A stretch of DNA of 31,736 nt, taken from IMG/VR virus record IMGVR_UViG_3300027487_000008, positions 1 through 31,736 of that record. One strand, given 5' to 3'. Both the position numbers and the translations under genes were made by a program. This document shows positions 2,898-30,632 of this stretch, piece by piece. Source of the DNA: a virus. Under the pieces are notes generated by a model. That model was given only the letters and a program-made list of their open reading frames with translations. It made no database searches and had not been told where the DNA came from. The number at the start of each line of letters is the position of its first letter. The stretch's first letter is position 1.

Positions 2898-3165
2898 ATG
2901 CGCCCTCCCGCAACTCTGACCGCAGAATGTGTGCGTCACGTGGTGCCACGATTGCCAGTCGTGCCTTGTCGTTGCGGATCTCCACCAGCGTAATCTGCAC
3001 CTGCACTCCGTTGCAGTCGATCACGACCGATTCGCCTGCCGCGCGTCCAATCACTAGGCGTGAATACCCCTCCGGCTTTTCTGGCAACAGGTTTTCGGGT
3101 GTTGCCTCCATGATGTCGGGTGCATCGTGCGGAAGTGCTGCGACCTGTGGTAGTTTGCGTTTCAT
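2884..3165 (-). CDS. CsrA/RsmA-like RNA-binding regulator with N-terminal extension
   Basis: Residues 36-87 align along the whole CsrA fold: LVIGRAAGESVVID corresponds to the LILTRKxGExixI strand, ITLVEIRNDKARLAI to the central strands, and APRDAHILRSEL to the APKEVxVHREEI end. R82 matches the RNA-contacting Arg44 of E. coli CsrA, and GES (44-46) is kept. CsrA dimers bind AnGGA motifs in mRNA leaders and block or alter translation. The first 35 residues are not part of the family and are Pro-rich. The start used is ATG 3165; an in-frame GTG at 3210 would overlap the resolvase gene. It lies among recombination and early genes, so it may act on phage or host mRNAs. Confidence 0.87.
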   Translation of the reverse strand: MKRKLPQVAALPHDAPDIMEATPENLLPEKPEGYSRLVIGRAAGESVVIDCNGVQVQITLVEIRNDKARLAIVAPRDAHILRSELREGAYGRR

Positions 3166-3191
3166 GTGTCCATATTCTTTCACTCTGAGGG

Positions 3192-3629
3192 TTATGTGCC
3201 TGAGGCACACTCGCGAATCCAGATGTCAGTTTGCGGCGTCACTGACCATCGTTTGCATACGAATGCCGATGCCACCTGTTTGTCATCGGCCCACACGCCG
3301 CAATCCGTCAATGCGTCGCAGACGGCTTTGCCAACGTTGTCCCAATCCGGTTTGCTATCATGTATTGCGCCCTGCAATTCAGCACGTTTTTTCTTGCTCC
3401 ACGATGCGGGCATTGCAAATCTACAATACACGTTTAGCTGCACAGGCCCCGTGATTGTTTTCCACCGTGGCGCCGCCTCAATAAACGCCGCTCTGATCGC
3501 GACCTTATATGCGTGCACTGGATGCGACTTTGGCAAATACAATCTGCCACGTCCTCCAATCGTGCTCACTCTGTGCCGCGGTTGTGCCACTGGCTCACCG
3601 GGCACAATGAAAAATAGATCAGTGCTCAA
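3192..3629 (-). CDS. rusA: RusA-like Holliday junction resolvase
   Basis: The 145-residue length is normal for RusA. The N-terminus FIVPGEPVAQPRHR and the KPDWDNVGKAVCDAL segment are the two signature blocks. D95 and D97, with D116 in VWADDKQV, sit at the spacing of the catalytic aspartates D70, D72 and D91 of E. coli RusA. The enzyme cuts four-way DNA junctions made during phage recombination or replication and clears branched DNA before packaging. It overlaps its upstream neighbour by 11 nt and is followed by the CsrA-like gene. Confidence 0.93.
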   Translation of the reverse strand: MSTDLFFIVPGEPVAQPRHRVSTIGGRGRLYLPKSHPVHAYKVAIRAAFIEAAPRWKTITGPVQLNVYCRFAMPASWSKKKRAELQGAIHDSKPDWDNVGKAVCDALTDCGVWADDKQVASAFVCKRWSVTPQTDIWIRECASGT

Positions 3630-5538: not shown

Positions 5539-5569
5539 CGTTCGTTCCCTCACTCAATCGCCTCAGAAT

Positions 5570-5594
5570 CCCCCGCCGCACTGTGCAGCGGGGG
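5570..5594 (-). terminator. intergenic hairpin, copy of a repeated leader element
   Basis: A 7 bp CCCCCGC/GCGGGGG stem closes an inner GCA/TGC pairing. It lies between the stop at 5609 and the start at 5538. The flanks ACACCTTCCCCC and CGGGGGATT are shared with the hairpin at 5896-5920. There is no T tract on the minus strand, so it is more likely an mRNA-stability or processing structure than a full terminator. Confidence 0.6.
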
Positions 5595-5608
5595 AAGGTG
5601 TCACCCGA

Positions 5609-5857: not shown

Positions 5858-5895
5858 GATCTCGTTCCCTCAATCTCGCGTGTCTCGGAAGAAAT

Positions 5896-5920
5896 CCCCC
5901 GTCAGCCAGTCTGACGGGGG
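5896..5920 (-). terminator. intergenic hairpin, copy of a repeated leader element
   Basis: A perfect 10 bp stem (CCCCCGTCAG/CTGACGGGGG) with a 5-nt CCAGT loop sits between the stop at 5934 and the start at 5857. It is followed by the leader GAGATTGAGGGAACGAG. It shares flanks with the copy at 5570-5594 and the CAGCCAGT loop region with the copy at 11254-11276. It lacks a T tract on the minus strand. Confidence 0.62.
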
Positions 5921-5933
5921 AAGGTGTTATGAA

Positions 5934-10536: not shown

Positions 10537-10736
10537 GGTACCTGCCCCTCCGCGTCGTCCTCAATCAGTCGCAGCCTCAGCCCCCGCACGTCACTTTCGA
10601 TCTTCGCGATGCGTCGCATTACGTCGGACAGTGTCCGGTTGATTCTGTCAATCTCCGCCTGCAGATCCGGTGTCGGCTCTGCCTGCGGTGTCGGCTGCTC
10701 CGTGTCTCCGTCGATGTAGATTCGGATTTGTGCCAT
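10533..10736 (-). CDS. small coiled-coil protein
   Basis: The protein is about 67 residues from ATG 10736, with an alternative GTG at 10739. It has a short beta start (AQIRIYIDGD), a Pro/Gln linker, and a helical heptad region (LQAEIDRINRTLSDVMRRIAKIESDVRGL). The start overlaps the stop of the ribbon-helix-helix gene as TGATG. Function not recognised. Confidence 0.63.
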   Translation of the reverse strand: MAQIRIYIDGDTEQPTPQAEPTPDLQAEIDRINRTLSDVMRRIAKIESDVRGLRLRLIEDDAEGQVP

Positions 10737-10921
10737 CACTGCACCCCCGCCGCATTTGCCACGATTGCCGACAGCCCCTCCTGCCGCGTCGTGTATCGTG
10801 CATCAATCCACGCCACCACCTCCGGCGGGAGTTTGACCACGCACGTTATTGCGTTGCGTGCGTGTTTTCTCGGTCTGCCCATCACGGGCTTCGTCTCGGT
10901 CACTGTCTTTGCCTTCTTCAT
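10736..10921 (-). CDS. ribbon-helix-helix (CopG/Arc-like) DNA-binding protein
   Basis: The protein is about 61 residues. A basic arm (GRPRKHARN) leads into the strand AITCVVKLPPEVVAWID, then a turn and second helix (RQEGLSAIVANAAGV). This is the ribbon-helix-helix pattern of small phage and plasmid repressors. ATG 10921 is preferred over 10927 because AAAGGG is spaced six bases from it. It is one of two plausible DNA-binding regulators in the early region and could bind one of the two promoters. Confidence 0.77.
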   Translation of the reverse strand: MKKAKTVTETKPVMGRPRKHARNAITCVVKLPPEVVAWIDARYTTRQEGLSAIVANAAGVQ

Positions 10922-11012
10922 GTCCATCCCTTTCGTTGAGTAAACACACCTCGCACCGCTGCACCTCCCACGGGCACAGCGGCTGCCTGCACTTGTCGCA
11001 CAGTTCGTTCAT
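10803..11012 (-). CDS. short cysteine-rich zinc-finger-like protein overlapping the RHH gene
   Basis: The frame opens with C5-x2-C8, C13, C20-x2-C23, a treble-clef-like zinc-binding cluster, followed by a very polar tail. The start overlaps the upstream stop by ATGA and has GAGG close by. The last 40 codons run inside the next gene in another frame, which is a large overlap for this phage. The cysteine part looks real. The tail may be an accident of the overlap. Confidence 0.5.
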   Translation of the reverse strand: MNELCDKCRQPLCPWEVQRCEVCLLNERDGHEEGKDSDRDEARDGQTEKTRTQRNNVRGQTPAGGGGVD

Positions 11013-25361: not shown

Positions 25362-25559
25362 TCAACTGCCCGAAATCACCGTCTTAAACCTATTGCCACA
25401 CGAACAGGCCCGGTGCTGAATTCGCACGCCGTCTGTCTCGTGGCTGCAGTAGGCCGTCGCGAATTTGCCGCATGACGGACACATGCCGAACCCCGGAACA
25501 GCGTGCCGCGGTGTGTATTCTCGCCGTTCTGTGTATGCGGGGCTTTTTGGCGGTTTCAT
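25362..25559 (-). CDS. small Ogr/Delta- or Com-like zinc-finger protein
   Basis: The 65-residue protein has C27-x2-C30, C38, and C52-x1-C54 around HETDGVRIQHRA. The spacing is close to Ogr/Delta late-gene activators and Mu Com-type zinc fingers. In P2, Ogr activates late promoters; in Mu, Com activates translation of mom. Its place inside the packaging module, with an ATGA overlap to the large terminase, is unusual for either. A regulatory or packaging-accessory role is possible. Confidence 0.68.
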   Translation of the reverse strand: MKPPKSPAYTERREYTPRHAVPGFGMCPSCGKFATAYCSHETDGVRIQHRACSCGNRFKTVISGS

Positions 25560-27583
25560 CGCAGATTCCTCACGAATTTCTGTGCTTTTTTACCCGAAAT
25601 CACGCCTTTTGCAGCCTGAATTTCCGCCTGCCGCTGCCTCTGAGATTCTACCGTGTCGCTGTCGTAACGCAAAATCGACAGCCCGACAAACGACAGATAC
25701 GCCGCGTCCAGCAGGTGGTTGCGCGTGAATGTCTGCTGCCACTTCGTCACAGATCCTTTGCCGACCTCAAACGCTGTGACCTCGCGTTCTGCGGTCAACT
25801 GTTTGGCCAATTCAATGCGGTGCTCTGGCTGATCAGTCGCCGGCAGCAACAATGCCTGCGGAGATTCAACGGGAACGCTCAACGCCTGATGTACTCTACG
25901 CTTCCACAGGTCCGCGTTGTTCTGGTATTCGCGATAACGTCCGGCAGATCCGGTGCACAGCACGTCATGCCAGCCCTCACCTAGTTTCACCGTGATTTTT
26001 GAGCGGTCCCGCGGTGCGTTGTAAACCTGCCCGAGGTGCTGCTTGAATCCAAAACCCTTGCTGGTGTTCCACAGGCTGTGTTGAGCGGCTTCCTCGCGGA
26101 TGATGTCGGTCTCCCAACCGGCGTCAATCAGAACAATGTCTGCCGACCGATTGCCGCTATCGGATTGCCACCCCGAATCGAACTTTTCCTGCAGCAGTCG
26201 GATAGCCTGCCGAAGTGCGGTTTTCAGGTCCGCCAGATCTCGCTGCACTGGCTCGAAACCGTAATCAATACAGATCGGCTGTCCGTCCCGCTGCTCCGCC
26301 GTGACGAACCAATCCAGTTGTGCCGCTCGCACGTCCACGCCTGCAGCAATGCGAACAGTCTCCGGCGGGATCTGTCCACGCCGGTAATCGCTCTGGCGGT
26401 GCATGATCGTCCGGAAGTCCAGCGGTTCGACGGCCTGCTCCTTCGGCTGTGCCGGAAGTGCCCACGTCCACTGCAGCAACTCCCGCTCACTGTTGTCCGC
26501 GTCGATTTCTCGCTTTCCTCGCCATTCATCGGCCCCGACAATTGCCGCAGTCACAAACGTATTTGTGGCTGCCGAGTATCTGAACCCCATTGTTTTTGTT
26601 GCCGGTATGTCGCCGGTGACAATGCCGGCGGAATCAATGTGCTGCCCGCGGTGTCGGAGTTTTGCACGCTGAAGCATCTCCCGCCGCTTCGCATCATCGA
26701 ACAGCCACCCGCATAACGGACAGGCCCATCGGCTGTTGGCTTCCGCTTCTGCCTCTGACTGTGCCTCTTGCCAGCCGTGAAGGTGCTCACGACTCGGACA
26801 CACGTAATCTCCGCAGGAGTCGCACGGGAAAACCACCTCGCCCGCGGTCCCGTTCTGGTACTCCTGCCAGATCCGGCCATCCTCGACGGTCACAGTTGAT
26901 TCCAGGTAAATCCTCGCCTGCCCGCTCGCTCGGTATGCTCGAACGCGACCCTCCATCTGCTTCAGCTTAGTGGCTTCGTCAGACTTGCCACCGACTTCAT
27001 CGAGATGTGACACCTCAGTCACCACCAGCACAGGCCCGGTAAAGCCGGCGCGCTTTTCGTCACCACCGCCCGCTGTAATGAATTTCAGGTTGGCCCCGTT
27101 TGTAAACTGGATCAGCTCCGGAGTGCTGCCACGGCTGCCGGCTCCTCTCCGCGGCAGAAATCGCGCGTATTGGCTGGCCTCGATTGCCGGTTTGATGTCC
27201 AGCTGCCATTTGTCGTTTGCCATCTCCATTGACGGCAAGCCGAACAGCACTGTTTGCTGTCGCTCAAACAAGTGATAGAGAATCGGAACCACAACGAACG
27301 CCAACGTCTTGCCTGACTGCTGCGGACCCGTGCACGCAAACCGGAAGAAATTGCCAGCGTCCACGGCGTCGAAAAACAGCCCATGCGCCGGCTGTCTGTT
27401 GCACCGAAATCGCTGTCCCTGAAACGGCCCATCAGGCAGGATGATTTCGGATTCAGCGAACTGGCGAAGGCTCCGAAATGGTCGGATGATCACATGCCGC
27501 CGGAAAATGTCAGCCAACGCTCGCCGGCTCGTTTTCGCGTATTCCGTCCACGGTATCGTATTCGGCGGTGTCTGCATGTGCAT
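25556..27583 (-). CDS. terminase large subunit, lambda GpA family
   Basis: The 675-residue protein follows the GpA plan. The ATPase part has Walker A TGPQQSGKT (85-93) and a Walker B-like VLVVTEVSHLDE, in which T189 replaces the usual Asp before E190. A zinc-ribbon-like insert (C254, C257, C262, C288, C291) separates it from the nuclease part, which has AAGVDVRAAQLDWFV, VLIDAGWETDIIREE and HLLDAAYLS. The enzyme cuts concatemers and pumps DNA into proheads through the portal. It overlaps the small subunit by 74 nt. The start is ATG 27583, with a second ATG two codons on. Confidence 0.95.
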   Translation of the reverse strand: MHMQTPPNTIPWTEYAKTSRRALADIFRRHVIIRPFRSLRQFAESEIILPDGPFQGQRFRCNRQPAHGLFFDAVDAGNFFRFACTGPQQSGKTLAFVVVPILYHLFERQQTVLFGLPSMEMANDKWQLDIKPAIEASQYARFLPRRGAGSRGSTPELIQFTNGANLKFITAGGGDEKRAGFTGPVLVVTEVSHLDEVGGKSDEATKLKQMEGRVRAYRASGQARIYLESTVTVEDGRIWQEYQNGTAGEVVFPCDSCGDYVCPSREHLHGWQEAQSEAEAEANSRWACPLCGWLFDDAKRREMLQRAKLRHRGQHIDSAGIVTGDIPATKTMGFRYSAATNTFVTAAIVGADEWRGKREIDADNSERELLQWTWALPAQPKEQAVEPLDFRTIMHRQSDYRRGQIPPETVRIAAGVDVRAAQLDWFVTAEQRDGQPICIDYGFEPVQRDLADLKTALRQAIRLLQEKFDSGWQSDSGNRSADIVLIDAGWETDIIREEAAQHSLWNTSKGFGFKQHLGQVYNAPRDRSKITVKLGEGWHDVLCTGSAGRYREYQNNADLWKRRVHQALSVPVESPQALLLPATDQPEHRIELAKQLTAEREVTAFEVGKGSVTKWQQTFTRNHLLDAAYLSFVGLSILRYDSDTVESQRQRQAEIQAAKGVISGKKAQKFVRNLR

Positions 27584-28028
27584 ATGCGTTGTCCAATCCC
27601 CGCAGGACTTCGGCGTTCGCCTCCTCCAGCATTTCCCACACGTCGTTGTTGCCCATTCGCTTCACGTGCTCGGCCAGTCGCCTGTACGGTCCCAGAATGG
27701 CCTGAACAGCCTCCTCAAAATCATTCAGCCTGACAATCTGCTGCCGCTGCTCCGCCAGTTTGATTTCTTCGATCTGTGCCTTGGCCATCCGGTACCGCTC
27801 AAGACCTTCCGACTCTGACCCCACCAGCATTTCGTCGCCGTTTGCCGGACTTGGTGCCGTGCCCTCGGTCCTGTTGTTCCACCACAGCACACCAGCATAA
27901 ATCTCGACCGTGTTGTCCTTATCGAATGGCGGGAAGGTTGGATCGTGTTTGCATTTGGTCAAGGCCGGGGAGCTGCAGCCGAGAATTCTGGCCAACTCAG
28001 ACTGGTTGCAGCGTTTTCGGTATCCCAT
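27510..28028 (-). CDS. terminase small subunit (Nu1-like)
   Basis: The 172-residue protein has an N-terminal winged-helix-like DNA-binding segment (NQSELARILGCSSPALTKCK, residues 8-27), a linker, then a helical region (RYRMAKAQIEEIKLAEQRQQIVRLNDFEEAV), typical of lambda Nu1 and related small terminases. It binds the packaging site and brings in the large subunit. The candidate site with tandem hairpin repeats lies 90-161 bases upstream of the start. ATG 28028 has no strong ribosome site. Confidence 0.85.
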   Translation of the reverse strand: MGYRKRCNQSELARILGCSSPALTKCKHDPTFPPFDKDNTVEIYAGVLWWNNRTEGTAPSPANGDEMLVGSESEGLERYRMAKAQIEEIKLAEQRQQIVRLNDFEEAVQAILGPYRRLAEHVKRMGNNDVWEMLEEANAEVLRGLDNAYAHADTAEYDTVDGIRENEPASVG

Positions 28029-28100
28029 GCGTTGTAATAACCCAGTTCAAAACCCAAAAACACAAAAATTCAGGGATGGTGAAACACCGCACGGCCCAAA

Positions 28101-28113
28101 CCCCCTAGGGAGG
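28101..28113. other. CCCTAGGG palindrome near terminase, candidate cut-site element
   Basis: CCCCCTAGGGAGG contains a perfect 8 bp palindrome. It is flanked by the small terminase start on one side and tandem hairpin repeats on the other. In cos phages the cut site and binding repeats have this kind of arrangement. No cleavage data are available from sequence alone. Confidence 0.3.
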
Positions 28114-28117
28114 ACCC

Positions 28118-28189
28118 GTTTCTCATTTTTGAGAAACCTGCCAAAATGGCAGGTTTTCTCATTTGTGAGAAAACCTGCCATTGTGGCAG
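28118..28189. repeat. tandem 35-37 bp repeats with overlapping hairpins (cos/pac candidate)
   Basis: Two tandem units (28118-28152 and 28153-28189) each read GTTTtCTCATTTnTGAGAAAaCCTGCCAnnnTGGCAG. Four inverted repeats result: 8 bp stem 28118-28137, 10 bp stem 28134-28156, 17 bp stem with TTTG loop 28145-28182, and 6 bp stem 28175-28189. Neighbours overlap, so they compete in RNA or cruciform form. The site lies in the 164-base gap just before the small terminase gene, where packaging sites are usual. The 17 bp stem followed by TTTT on the minus strand could also end transcription. Confidence 0.75.
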
Positions 28190-28192
28190 CCA

Positions 28193-28555
28193 TTACACTG
28201 TTGCCACTTTGATCTTGACCCGCGCCTGCTCAGTGCCTGCCACCGTCGTGAATGTGATCCTCAATGTGGTCGTTTGTTCGTCATCATCGCTCCCCGCTGT
28301 CCCTCCGGACAACGTGAAACTGATCCCGGTGTTCGCCTCGATCGTCACGGGGTTTCCGTATTGGTCATAGTCGCTAGTGTCAGCTGATAACACGGTCGCT
28401 CCGCTGATTGTCAGGGATGCGTCAGGGCTGGTCACGCTGGTAACGCCTGTGATCGTCCGGCCCTTGATTGCTTCCCCCAAATCCACGTAATATGTTTTGG
28501 ATTCGCCGGTGTAATGCAGCAGCACTTGCCCATCAATGCAACACGTCATCTCCAC
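28193..28555 (-). CDS. small beta-sandwich tail/fibre-associated protein
   Basis: The 120-residue protein is rich in Thr, Ser and Val. Its pattern (ESKTYYVDLGEAIKGRTITGV, SLTISGATVL, TGISFTLSGGTAG, TTTLRITFTTVAGTEQ) resembles small Ig-like phage proteins that connect fibres to tails or decorate capsids. The start ATG 28555 overlaps the previous gene by 10 bases. It is the last gene before the hairpin repeat region. Assignment is by pattern and position. Confidence 0.7.
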   Translation of the reverse strand: MEMTCCIDGQVLLHYTGESKTYYVDLGEAIKGRTITGVTSVTSPDASLTISGATVLSADTSDYDQYGNPVTIEANTGISFTLSGGTAGSDDDEQTTTLRITFTTVAGTEQARVKIKVATV

Positions 28556-28764
28556 GGCCCTCCATTCACGATTCTGCCTCTGTGCTCAATGGTCGCTGTC
28601 CTGCTCCGCGTCCCCAGTGTTGCCACCCTCGTTCTGTATTCGACTGCCACACCGTCACGGGCTGGCTGTGGTGACGGCGTAACGCCAGAATCAGCAAGCG
28701 CCCTTCCAGCCGCCCTCCAACCCTGCTGTGCAAACCCCCTGAATATGAATCGTCCTGTGCTCAT
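28546..28764 (-). CDS. small hypothetical protein
   Basis: The 72-residue basic protein starts in an ATGA overlap with the repeat-rich tail gene and overlaps the next gene by 10 bases. It has an Arg/Gly-rich N-terminus (STGRFIFRGFAQQGWRAAGRAL) and short strands (VAVEYRTRVATLG). No family recognised. The coupling supports it as a real gene. Confidence 0.57.
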   Translation of the reverse strand: MSTGRFIFRGFAQQGWRAAGRALADSGVTPSPQPARDGVAVEYRTRVATLGTRSRTATIEHRGRIVNGGPWR

Positions 28765-29915
28765 GCCTTACTCAATGTCGTTGTGCTGCGGTTCCCGCTG
28801 CTGTCCAGTCCCGTGTAATCCACGGTAAACGTATTGCCGCCGATCGTCAGCGTATACGTCTCTGCTGCCGTCTGCGCGTCGCTGCAGGCTCCCACAAGCA
28901 CAGCCAACGAATAGCTCACCCGGTCACTCACGATTAGCAGATTCGCGGCTGTCGCCAGCCCTGCCTGCAGCTCCGTCACCGCACTGGCTGCGATAGCGTC
29001 TGCATCAATCACGTCCATCTGCATCTCGTGCACGTCTGCTGCAACGTGGTTGCTGCCTGTCACCTGCACCGTCCGCTGATTGCTATTCTGTGCCAGCAAC
29101 ACGCTGTCGAGATACCCCGCTCGTGTCGCCGTCCACGCGCTCGCCAGTGCCGCGTTGTCTGTCCCTCGCATGTCTGTATTTACGGTCGTCGTATCGACCA
29201 GCGTAACGCGTGACACATGCCCGCTGCTGTTGATGCCGAGTGCTGCGAAATTGGCTGGCACTGTAAACGTCGCCATGCGACTACTGATCGCTGCGTCGAT
29301 CCGGCCCAACTCTGTGGCCAACTCCGTCCGCACTCCGCCCGCTGTCAACGTGCTACGACTGCTGACACTCACATCAATACGACCGAGCTCCGTCGCCAGT
29401 TCCGTCCGGACTGCGGTCGCGTTCGTCGCTGCTGAGGGTGGTGTCGTATATGATGCCGTGGCCAGCCTGCTGCCGACTGTGGTGTCAATCCGTCCCAACT
29501 CTGTCGCCAGTTCTGTCCGCACTCCGCCCGCTGTCAACGTGCTGATCGCTCCAGCCATCGCAGTGACTGCTGCGGTTGCTGTGACCAGTCCGCCGGTTGC
29601 GTTGGTGGCGTTGGTCTGCAATGCGTCGAACACCGAGGCCAGTAACACCGTCCAGTTATGCACCGCTGTTGCCTGTGCTGTGTTGCCGGAATATATCTCC
29701 AGCCGTCCGACCGTGTCCGTGTTGCTGGTGGTGAGTGCAATGGTGTAATAGCCGTTCGCGTCATGCGTCACGGTCGCTCCGCTCAGCGTTGCTGGCGTGC
29801 CGTTTTTGCTGATGCGGAAATCTCCGACAACAGCCGTTGTCACGGCTGCTCCGTTGGCGTCCAGCACTGGTCCGACGGTGACTGTTGCGGTTGCCGATTG
29901 TCTCAGGATCTTCAT
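28761..29915 (-). CDS. repeat-rich tail/fibre protein
   Basis: The protein is 384 residues from ATG 29915 (MKILRQSATATVTVG), which has GGAG eight bases upstream and lies two bases after the LamG-frame stop. The N-terminal 100 residues are Ig-like (VTVGPVLDANGAAV, GDFRISKNGTPATLSG, YYTIALTTSNTDTVGRLEIY). Three copies of VRTELATELGRIDxxxxSR then follow, with Ala/Thr-rich linkers. A C-terminal beta part closes with TYTLTIGGNTFTVDYTG. The helical repeats suggest a stalk or trimer. The frame happens to stay open upstream, which would suggest a 623-residue fusion, but that reads through the LamG domain in the wrong frame. Confidence 0.75.
   Translation of the reverse strand: MKILRQSATATVTVGPVLDANGAAVTTAVVGDFRISKNGTPATLSGATVTHDANGYYTIALTTSNTDTVGRLEIYSGNTAQATAVHNWTVLLASVFDALQTNATNATGGLVTATAAVTAMAGAISTLTAGGVRTELATELGRIDTTVGSRLATASYTTPPSAATNATAVRTELATELGRIDVSVSSRSTLTAGGVRTELATELGRIDAAISSRMATFTVPANFAALGINSSGHVSRVTLVDTTTVNTDMRGTDNAALASAWTATRAGYLDSVLLAQNSNQRTVQVTGSNHVAADVHEMQMDVIDADAIAASAVTELQAGLATAANLLIVSDRVSYSLAVLVGACSDAQTAAETYTLTIGGNTFTVDYTGLDSSGNRSTTTLSKA
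29298..29542. repeat. three DNA repeats encoding VRTELATELGRID modules
   Basis: Copies at about 29298-29353, 29374-29419 and 29485-29542 share CGnCCnAnCTCnGTnGCCAnTTCnGTCCG. The first and third also share the following ACTCCGCCCGCTGTCAACGT, with near-perfect identity. The high identity points to recent internal duplication, so the repeat number may vary between relatives. Confidence 0.8.
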
Positions 29916-29917
29916 GC

Positions 29918-30632
29918 TCAACACTCCGCTCCGCAAATGATTCGCCGCCGTCTGTTGCCTGCCGTCGGAACCCGAAACGCATAACTCCGTCGCTGTGGTG
30001 TCAGCAGTCGCCCAAGACCGCCACGGCCTGCCTGGTACAGTTGCCGCACCTCCGGTGCCGTCAGCCCACGCCGCCAAACGCCGATGCTGTCGTGCTGTCC
30101 CGTTGTAAAAAATCCACCGGTGCTGAGACTGCCAATCCGGAACGTCGAGATACTCGGCACCGTTGGCTTCGCGACCATCAACGTAAATCCGGCCAGTTGA
30201 TCCGGTGCGTGATCCCACAATTTGCATGTAACTACCTGTGAGCGATGCTGCCGCACTAACATTATCCAATCCGCCATTACGGATGGAAAAATAAACATTT
30301 CCGTCTGAGTAATACTGCAGCCACGCGCCAGCCGTTGCGCTGGTTCGTGAACCTACAACGGAATCCACCAAAGCAGATGTTTTTCTGACCCAGTAACTGA
30401 TCGTTAAATCAGTCGCACCGCTGAGTATTCCGCTGTTAATGACCACCTCGTCGTTGACGCCATCGAAATCGAGTGCCCACCCGCCCGGAGTACCAACCCA
30501 GTCGCTGCCAGCGTCCATATTTGTGAGGGTGCCGTGCTGGCCCCGTCCGCTGCGGTCCAGCAGCGTGTAACCGCTCGGCCCCAGCGTCGGACACCACGCA
30601 CCAACCAAACCTTGTAGGATATTTCGGCTCAT
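29918..30632 (-). pseudogene. LamG/concanavalin-like tail protein interrupted by a frameshift
   Basis: From ATG 30632 the frame encodes MSRNILQGLVGAWCP, SGRGQHGTLTNMD, WALDFDGVNDEVVI, SYWVRKTSA and GRIYVDGREANG, the first two thirds of a LamG jelly-roll of about 235 residues. The remaining conserved end (FRIGSLSTGGFF, GQHDSIGVWRRGLTAPEVRQLY) is in the +1 frame and ends at TGA 29918. So the frame must change at about 30140-30185. No slippery motif is visible there, so a true mutation or a sequencing error is more likely than programmed shifting. LamG proteins in phage tails bind surface sugars. Confidence 0.72.

Follow-up and report, generated by a model that had tools for sequence, protein, structure and literature searches.

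A lambda-type cos region with a tandem array of candidate protein-binding palindromes beside cosQ in an uncultured tailed phage

Introduction

What purpose is served by a stack of overlapping inverted repeats in the gene-free gap in front of the terminase genes of an uncultured phage? The window, the whole stretch of 31,736 nucleotides analysed here (IMG/VR record IMGVR_UViG_3300027487_000008, positions 1 to 31,736), carries such a stack around positions 28101-28189. A sequence-only reading had proposed this interval as a candidate packaging site, with the hairpins as the element recognised by the small terminase and a transcription terminator as the alternative. In lambda, packaging starts at the terS-side end of the genome and finishes at the cosQ-side end (PMC4669245). 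The 7-bp cosQ is required for stopping packaging and for nicking the second strand (PMC4669245; PMC4856287), and how it halts the packaging motor is still unsettled (PMC4856287).

Results

Genes and sites of the gap

The intergenic gap extends over 28029-28192, with terS on one side and a gene for a 120-aa protein on the other, and all genes lie on the minus strand. Read on this strand, the order is late and fibre genes, array, cosQ, a 23-nt interval, cosN, a T-tract segment, terS and terL. The features are as follows.

25556..27583, minus strand: terL, large terminase of the lambda gpA type (Pfam GpA_ATPase 3.6e-18, GpA_nuclease 8.3e-13; phrog_15)
27510..28028, minus strand: terS, small terminase (phrog_57 terminase small subunit, 2e-09)
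28029..28075, minus strand: segment from cosN to terS, CCCTGAATTTTTGTGTTTTTGGGTTTTGAA, with repeated T-tracts; strongly conserved in relatives
28076..28087, minus strand: cosN with 12-nt cohesive end GTGTTTCACCAT; contig starts at 28087, stop of L039 at 28076
28088..28110, minus strand: cosQ-cosN interval of 23 nt, containing the palindrome CCCTAGGG; spacing as in lambda
28111..28117, minus strand: cosQ, GGGTCCT; same word and spacing as in lambda-group phages
28120..28135, minus strand: dyad A, TTCTCAAAAATGAGAA, 2 bp from cosQ
28138..28152, minus strand: dyad B, CTGCCATTTTGGCAG
28156..28171, minus strand: dyad A, TTCTCACAAATGAGAA
28175..28189, minus strand: dyad B, CTGCCACAATGGCAG
28193..28555, minus strand: 120-aa gene that closes the late/fibre group and lies upstream of the array; conserved at this place next to cos in relatives
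28761..30632, minus strand: fibre-like gene with a concanavalin-type lectin domain (Laminin_G_3, 3.1e-09)

Both gpA-type families, PF05876 and PF20454, scored above the Pfam cut-off in the large terminase. The match to phrog_57 places a Nu1-type small terminase directly right of cos; a Pfam search with the same protein gave no match. The 120-aa protein matched no family in PHROG and Pfam searches. In the region, no Rfam family reached the gathering threshold and no tRNA was found. A search of bacterial genomes with TerL for prophage relatives found none.

Genome end

Searches with the two terminase subunits, with the 120-aa protein and with a block of conserved DNA yielded many relatives. At least 22 contigs of uncultured phages with related terminases start at one and the same base, the equivalent of window position 28087. 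The exact start 12 nt ahead of a conserved CCCTG block was observed for L072, L077, L082, L084, L088, L089, L051, L094 and L097, and the same base is the start of L101, L102, L120, L123, L124, L128, L129, L021 and L023; four of the 22 (L085, L121, L020 and L024) were counted by eye. Thirty-one contig starts could be placed in this short stretch, thus 22 of 31 fall on the identical base. The sequences at the contig ends diverge (GGGCTTGCCCAT, GTGTTCCACCAT, GGGTTTTCCTAT, GTGTTTTTTCAG and others), which makes a shared assembly artefact unlikely. The opposite-end contig L039 stops exactly 12 nt beyond the shared start base, at the equivalent of 28076, and L033, L035, L146 and L148 end near the start base. 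The starts at one base and the stop of L039 12 nt further on therefore show cohesive genome ends and place cosN at 28076-28087. The contig ends show the pattern expected of filled-in 12-nt 5' cohesive ends, where the 5' polarity would follow from the fill-in at a single right end (L039). A unique genome end with a 12-nt overhang is a property of lambda-type cos sites. A headful pac site was rejected: it would give variable, permuted ends, yet the ends gather on one base.

Between cosN and terS, the segment 28029-28075 may by its position be the equivalent of lambda I2; its T-tracts are conserved in the sequence comparison and lie at the distance from cosN expected for I2. Lambda I2, the bent segment that separates cosN from cosB, covers bp 18-50 and contains poly-dA/poly-dT (PMC4856287). 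Repeats resembling the TerS-binding R sites of cosB were not noticed to the right of cosN.

One record of 41,008 bases (L003/L192-L194), listed as linear, is nearly identical to the window and spans cos. It shares about 127 bp (window 3045-3171) between its two ends and thus apparently represents a complete circle of some 41 kb.

cosQ and its spacing

GGGTCCT lies 23 nt left of cosN in lambda, N15, phi80, 21, HK225 and mEp237, and at matching spacing in Gifsy-1 as well. The record of phi80 labels the element 'cosQ; aka R4 region', and that of phage 21 annotates CGGGTCCTTTCC as R4 site 'for terminal cos cleavage'. Among the relatives of the window, the cosQ-cosN interval measures 23-27 nt with cosQ conserved or nearly so; the window itself has the 7-bp cosQ at the lambda distance from cosN, 23 nt. 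The palindrome CCCTAGGG, described before as a neighbour of the hairpins, is indeed there at 28103-28110; it recurs in L035 and is absent from more distant relatives.

The earlier proposal that the gap upstream of terS is the packaging site was borne out by the pile of contig ends at one base and by the lambda cosQ with its spacing, and these comparisons confirm a cos region of the lambda type in the gap; the tailed phage would have a genome of about 41 kb. The interval 28101-28189 has to be divided: 28118-28189 is the repeat array, while 28101-28117 belongs to the cosQ-cosN segment of cos. The hairpins themselves are not the cut site, and the sequence-only reading of them as the packaging site itself is not supported. 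The ends map at least 30 nt away, with the cut roughly 30-40 nt outside the hairpins, and relatives with the same terminase and the same cos lack them.

Structure of the array

The array at 28118-28189 lies after the stop codon of the 120-aa gene and abuts cosQ. Two dyad motifs make it up in tandem: motif A is TTCYCA-N4-TGRGAA and motif B is TGCCA-N3-TGGCA. Dyads are mostly spaced 13.5-18.5 bp centre to centre. The repeats are real: there are two pairs of direct repeats with a distance of 36-37 bp (28119-28136 / 28155-28172 and 28134-28152 / 28171-28189), and the inverted arms 28138-28161 / 28166-28189 are 96% complementary around a 4-nt loop. The perfect 17-bp stem that had been noticed by inspection, together with its 4-nt loop, is part of the minimum-energy fold; the shorter stems overlap it, and the neighbouring stems are therefore mutually exclusive, as claimed. 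Compared with dinucleotide shuffles, the fold had z values of -8.2 (RNA) and -10.2 (DNA), and none of 200 shuffles was equally stable. Elsewhere in the window no A dyad was present at two or fewer mismatches. A dispersed repeat was considered and rejected: exact A dyads form one cluster per record, with the unrelated contig G004 as the exception.

Array and cos in relatives

Arrays adjoin cos in 12 loci that differ in their neighbour genes, with close relatives counted separately. Nine of the loci were found without the motif; L146, L148 and L152 came from a motif search, and the contig of L152 had already been found by TerL. The 12 cos loci hold 27 A dyads versus 0.055 expected from shuffles. 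With both motifs scored at one mismatch or less, the dyads are arranged as BABA in the window, as BAABA in L035 and as BBAA in L095, L098, L112, L146, L152 and L159. Wherever cosQ is recognisable, the nearest A dyad is 0-12 nt from it (for L159 read from the sequence), with L104 as the exception at 32 nt. The array stays at cos in L152 and L159, where the downstream gene is ParB-like and not terS, and it keeps its place beside cosQ in L146 and L148, where an HNH gene or a different gene lies upstream. Four further matches were set aside as other contexts and not counted as cos arrays, L153 and L154 (genome matches to the tandem pattern) as well as L145 and L149; neither of the last two yielded a TerL relative.

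The comparison with related phages that had been suggested as a check gave a divided answer. Twelve loci have the repeats at cos, but they are missing from one clade that shares the terminase and the cos. cosQ and cosN are present and the array is absent in L122/L070, L125, L133/L069 and L039, so the array is not essential to cos across the group as a whole. In the TerL tree, the three array-less contigs with a TerL form one clade, and the array phages are spread over several deep branches.

Several gene replacements were seen beside cos. HNH endonuclease-like genes take the place of the array in L070/L122 and lie upstream of it in L146. In L118, L143, L152 and L159, ParB-like and DNA methyltransferase-like genes stand between cosN and terS, and the TerS of these phages carries another DNA-binding domain, closer to that of Nu1; in L118/L143 the terS gene is at greater distance from cos.

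Discussion

Candidate binding sites ahead of the terminal cut

We read the locus as a lambda-type cos extended by an array of A and B dyads that are candidate binding sites, with a best-guess role in packaging termination, and give this reading a probability of about 0.55. The dyads look like sites in double-stranded DNA for a protein rather than hairpins, since their halves vary independently, the RNA fold is not conserved and T-tracts are missing. Selection for a stem should make the two halves of A change in concert. For these halves, left T/C versus right A/G gave the table [[9,2],[7,2]] with a Fisher p of 1.0 over 20 distinct sites, a weak test of independence as the sites are related. 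Most likely, a dimeric sequence-specific protein would occupy the dyads, and the 24-bp hairpin of the window phage would be a by-product of stacked palindromes. With lambda polarity, the packaging motor would reach the array just ahead of cosQ and cosN. As it would meet the array at this point, a bound protein probably helps to arrest or to orient the terminase for the final cut; this best guess is drawn from position and analogy.

The reader of the array

The small terminase is one candidate for such a protein. The dyads would then be its binding sites and form a cosB on the left rather than the right side of cosN. Lambda TerS, a winged-helix protein that forms dimers, binds to R sites repeated within cos, SPP1 carries TerS sites on both sides of the cut (PMC4669245), and the A half-sites are 10 bp apart, i.e., one helical turn. 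In lambda and phage 21, however, a changed recognition helix is accompanied by changed R sites (PMC4669245). Here, the recognition regions vary widely among array phages (SSPALTKCK, GPACVTRYL, TPPVLTKYQ and TSPTLTKFK, with AVQTVKNWR in L118/L143), yet the A motif is constant, and L142 with an array and L125 without one have almost identical recognition regions. Because the motif stays constant with unlike helices and like helices occur with and without the array, TerS is not the favoured reader, and its sites are an unlikely identity for the dyads, although the best surviving of the alternatives. The earlier suggestion that the small terminase recognises the hairpins is not supported either: the folding is not conserved along with the motif, and the TerS helix does not track it.

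A protein other than TerS, perhaps of the host, is the likelier reader from these comparisons. Among the proteins of the window, no clear candidate tracked the array across six records, which may be incomplete. A small protein, perhaps of the ribbon-helix-helix type (10736-10927), also occurs in G005 and G013 but was not found in the array phage G008. As a separate observation, in TerS of the window (27510-28028) and its relatives the N-terminal DNA-binding segment varies between phages with nearly identical C-terminal parts, as if this segment had been swapped as a module.

RNA structure or operator

The array might instead act in the late transcript, as a terminator, a processing site or a translational switch before terS. 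An RNA element would agree with the high stability of the fold in the window and in L035 and L036, with the genes on the same strand at both sides and with two terminator-like stems listed here by a scan at chance level. The stability of the fold is not a property of the group: z values of the sense RNA are -10.4 in L035 and -8.9 in the window versus -0.16 in L037, where the fold is lost, and it is weak in several others, in which A dyads have a C-A mismatch in the sense RNA; this mismatch is stably present in many copies of A. With 47 dyads examined, a T-tract was found after none on the sense strand and after two on the opposite strand, which rejects an intrinsic terminator and disfavours the alternative raised with the first description. 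In addition, the array of L152 and L159 remains at cos in front of the ParB-like gene, and Rfam offers no family. An RNA role is thus improbable, and more so than TerS sites. Less probable again is a function outside packaging, as an operator or roadblock that stops late transcription from crossing cos or as a site for a regulator of terS. Tandem dyads typically mark operators, and the array sits between a late gene and cos, but its association with cosQ survives changes of the neighbour genes and it lies left of cosN, about 90 nt and more from the terS start.

Comparison with known sites

The candidate binding sites beside cosQ belong to a region that resembles the cos of lambda, N15, 21, phi80, HK225 and mEp237 in the GGGTCCT cosQ, the 23-nt interval, the 12-nt cohesive end, the gpA-type TerL and the terS-terL order, as well as in a T-tract segment right of cosN that may correspond to I2. 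The differences lie in the sequence of the cohesive end, in the array directly next to cosQ, with its two to five dyads of two other sequences, in a terS start 47 nt after cosN versus about 178, and in the R sites, none of which were identified here. Repeated motifs adjoining the cut and terS are shared with headful pac sites of the SPP1 type, whereas here the genome ends fall on a single exact base and the TerL belongs to the gpA family, which cuts cos. Intrinsic terminators share the GC-containing inverted repeats between genes, but the array has no T-tract and no conserved fold.

Several coliphages have a single dyad like TGATAA-N3-TTATCA 5-6 bp left of cosQ. A dyad of this kind is present a few bases left of cosQ in lambda, N15, phi80, 21, HK225, mEp237 and PhiR12_1 (L155, the lambda right end, L168, L170, L175, L176, L177 and L179). 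This dyad resembles a Fur box. Beside cosQ of phage 4A7, an Enterobacter phage and Gifsy-1 it is missing. The distribution suggests that an optional dyad beside cosQ may be a wider feature of lambda-type cos. IHF is a host protein acting at lambda cosB. By analogy, cosQ might amount to more than its seven bases: phages with a lambda-type cos might commonly carry dyads for a host DNA-binding protein immediately left of cosQ (TGATAA-N3-TTATCA in coliphages, the A/B arrays here), and the bound protein would aid the motor stop as a counterpart of IHF on the left side; we consider this generalisation doubtful, if less so than any of the alternatives weighed above. A description of dyads abutting cosQ was not found in a search of a few open papers on cosQ, a small part of the lambda packaging literature.

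A lambda-type cos with ends at base level is hereby located in a large group of phages that have not been cultured and are represented by contigs alone, and the cosQ word and spacing of lambda extend far outside the coliphages. For the question of how the motor stops, the cosQ-side dyads here and in lambda are a concrete target for deletion. Apart from the cos region, the window contains two similar GC-rich hairpins (AATCCCCCG...CGGGGGAAGGTGT) at 5567-5601 and 5893-5927 in a gene-poor stretch, and at 3192-3629 a gene judged by eye to encode a RusA-like Holliday junction resolvase.
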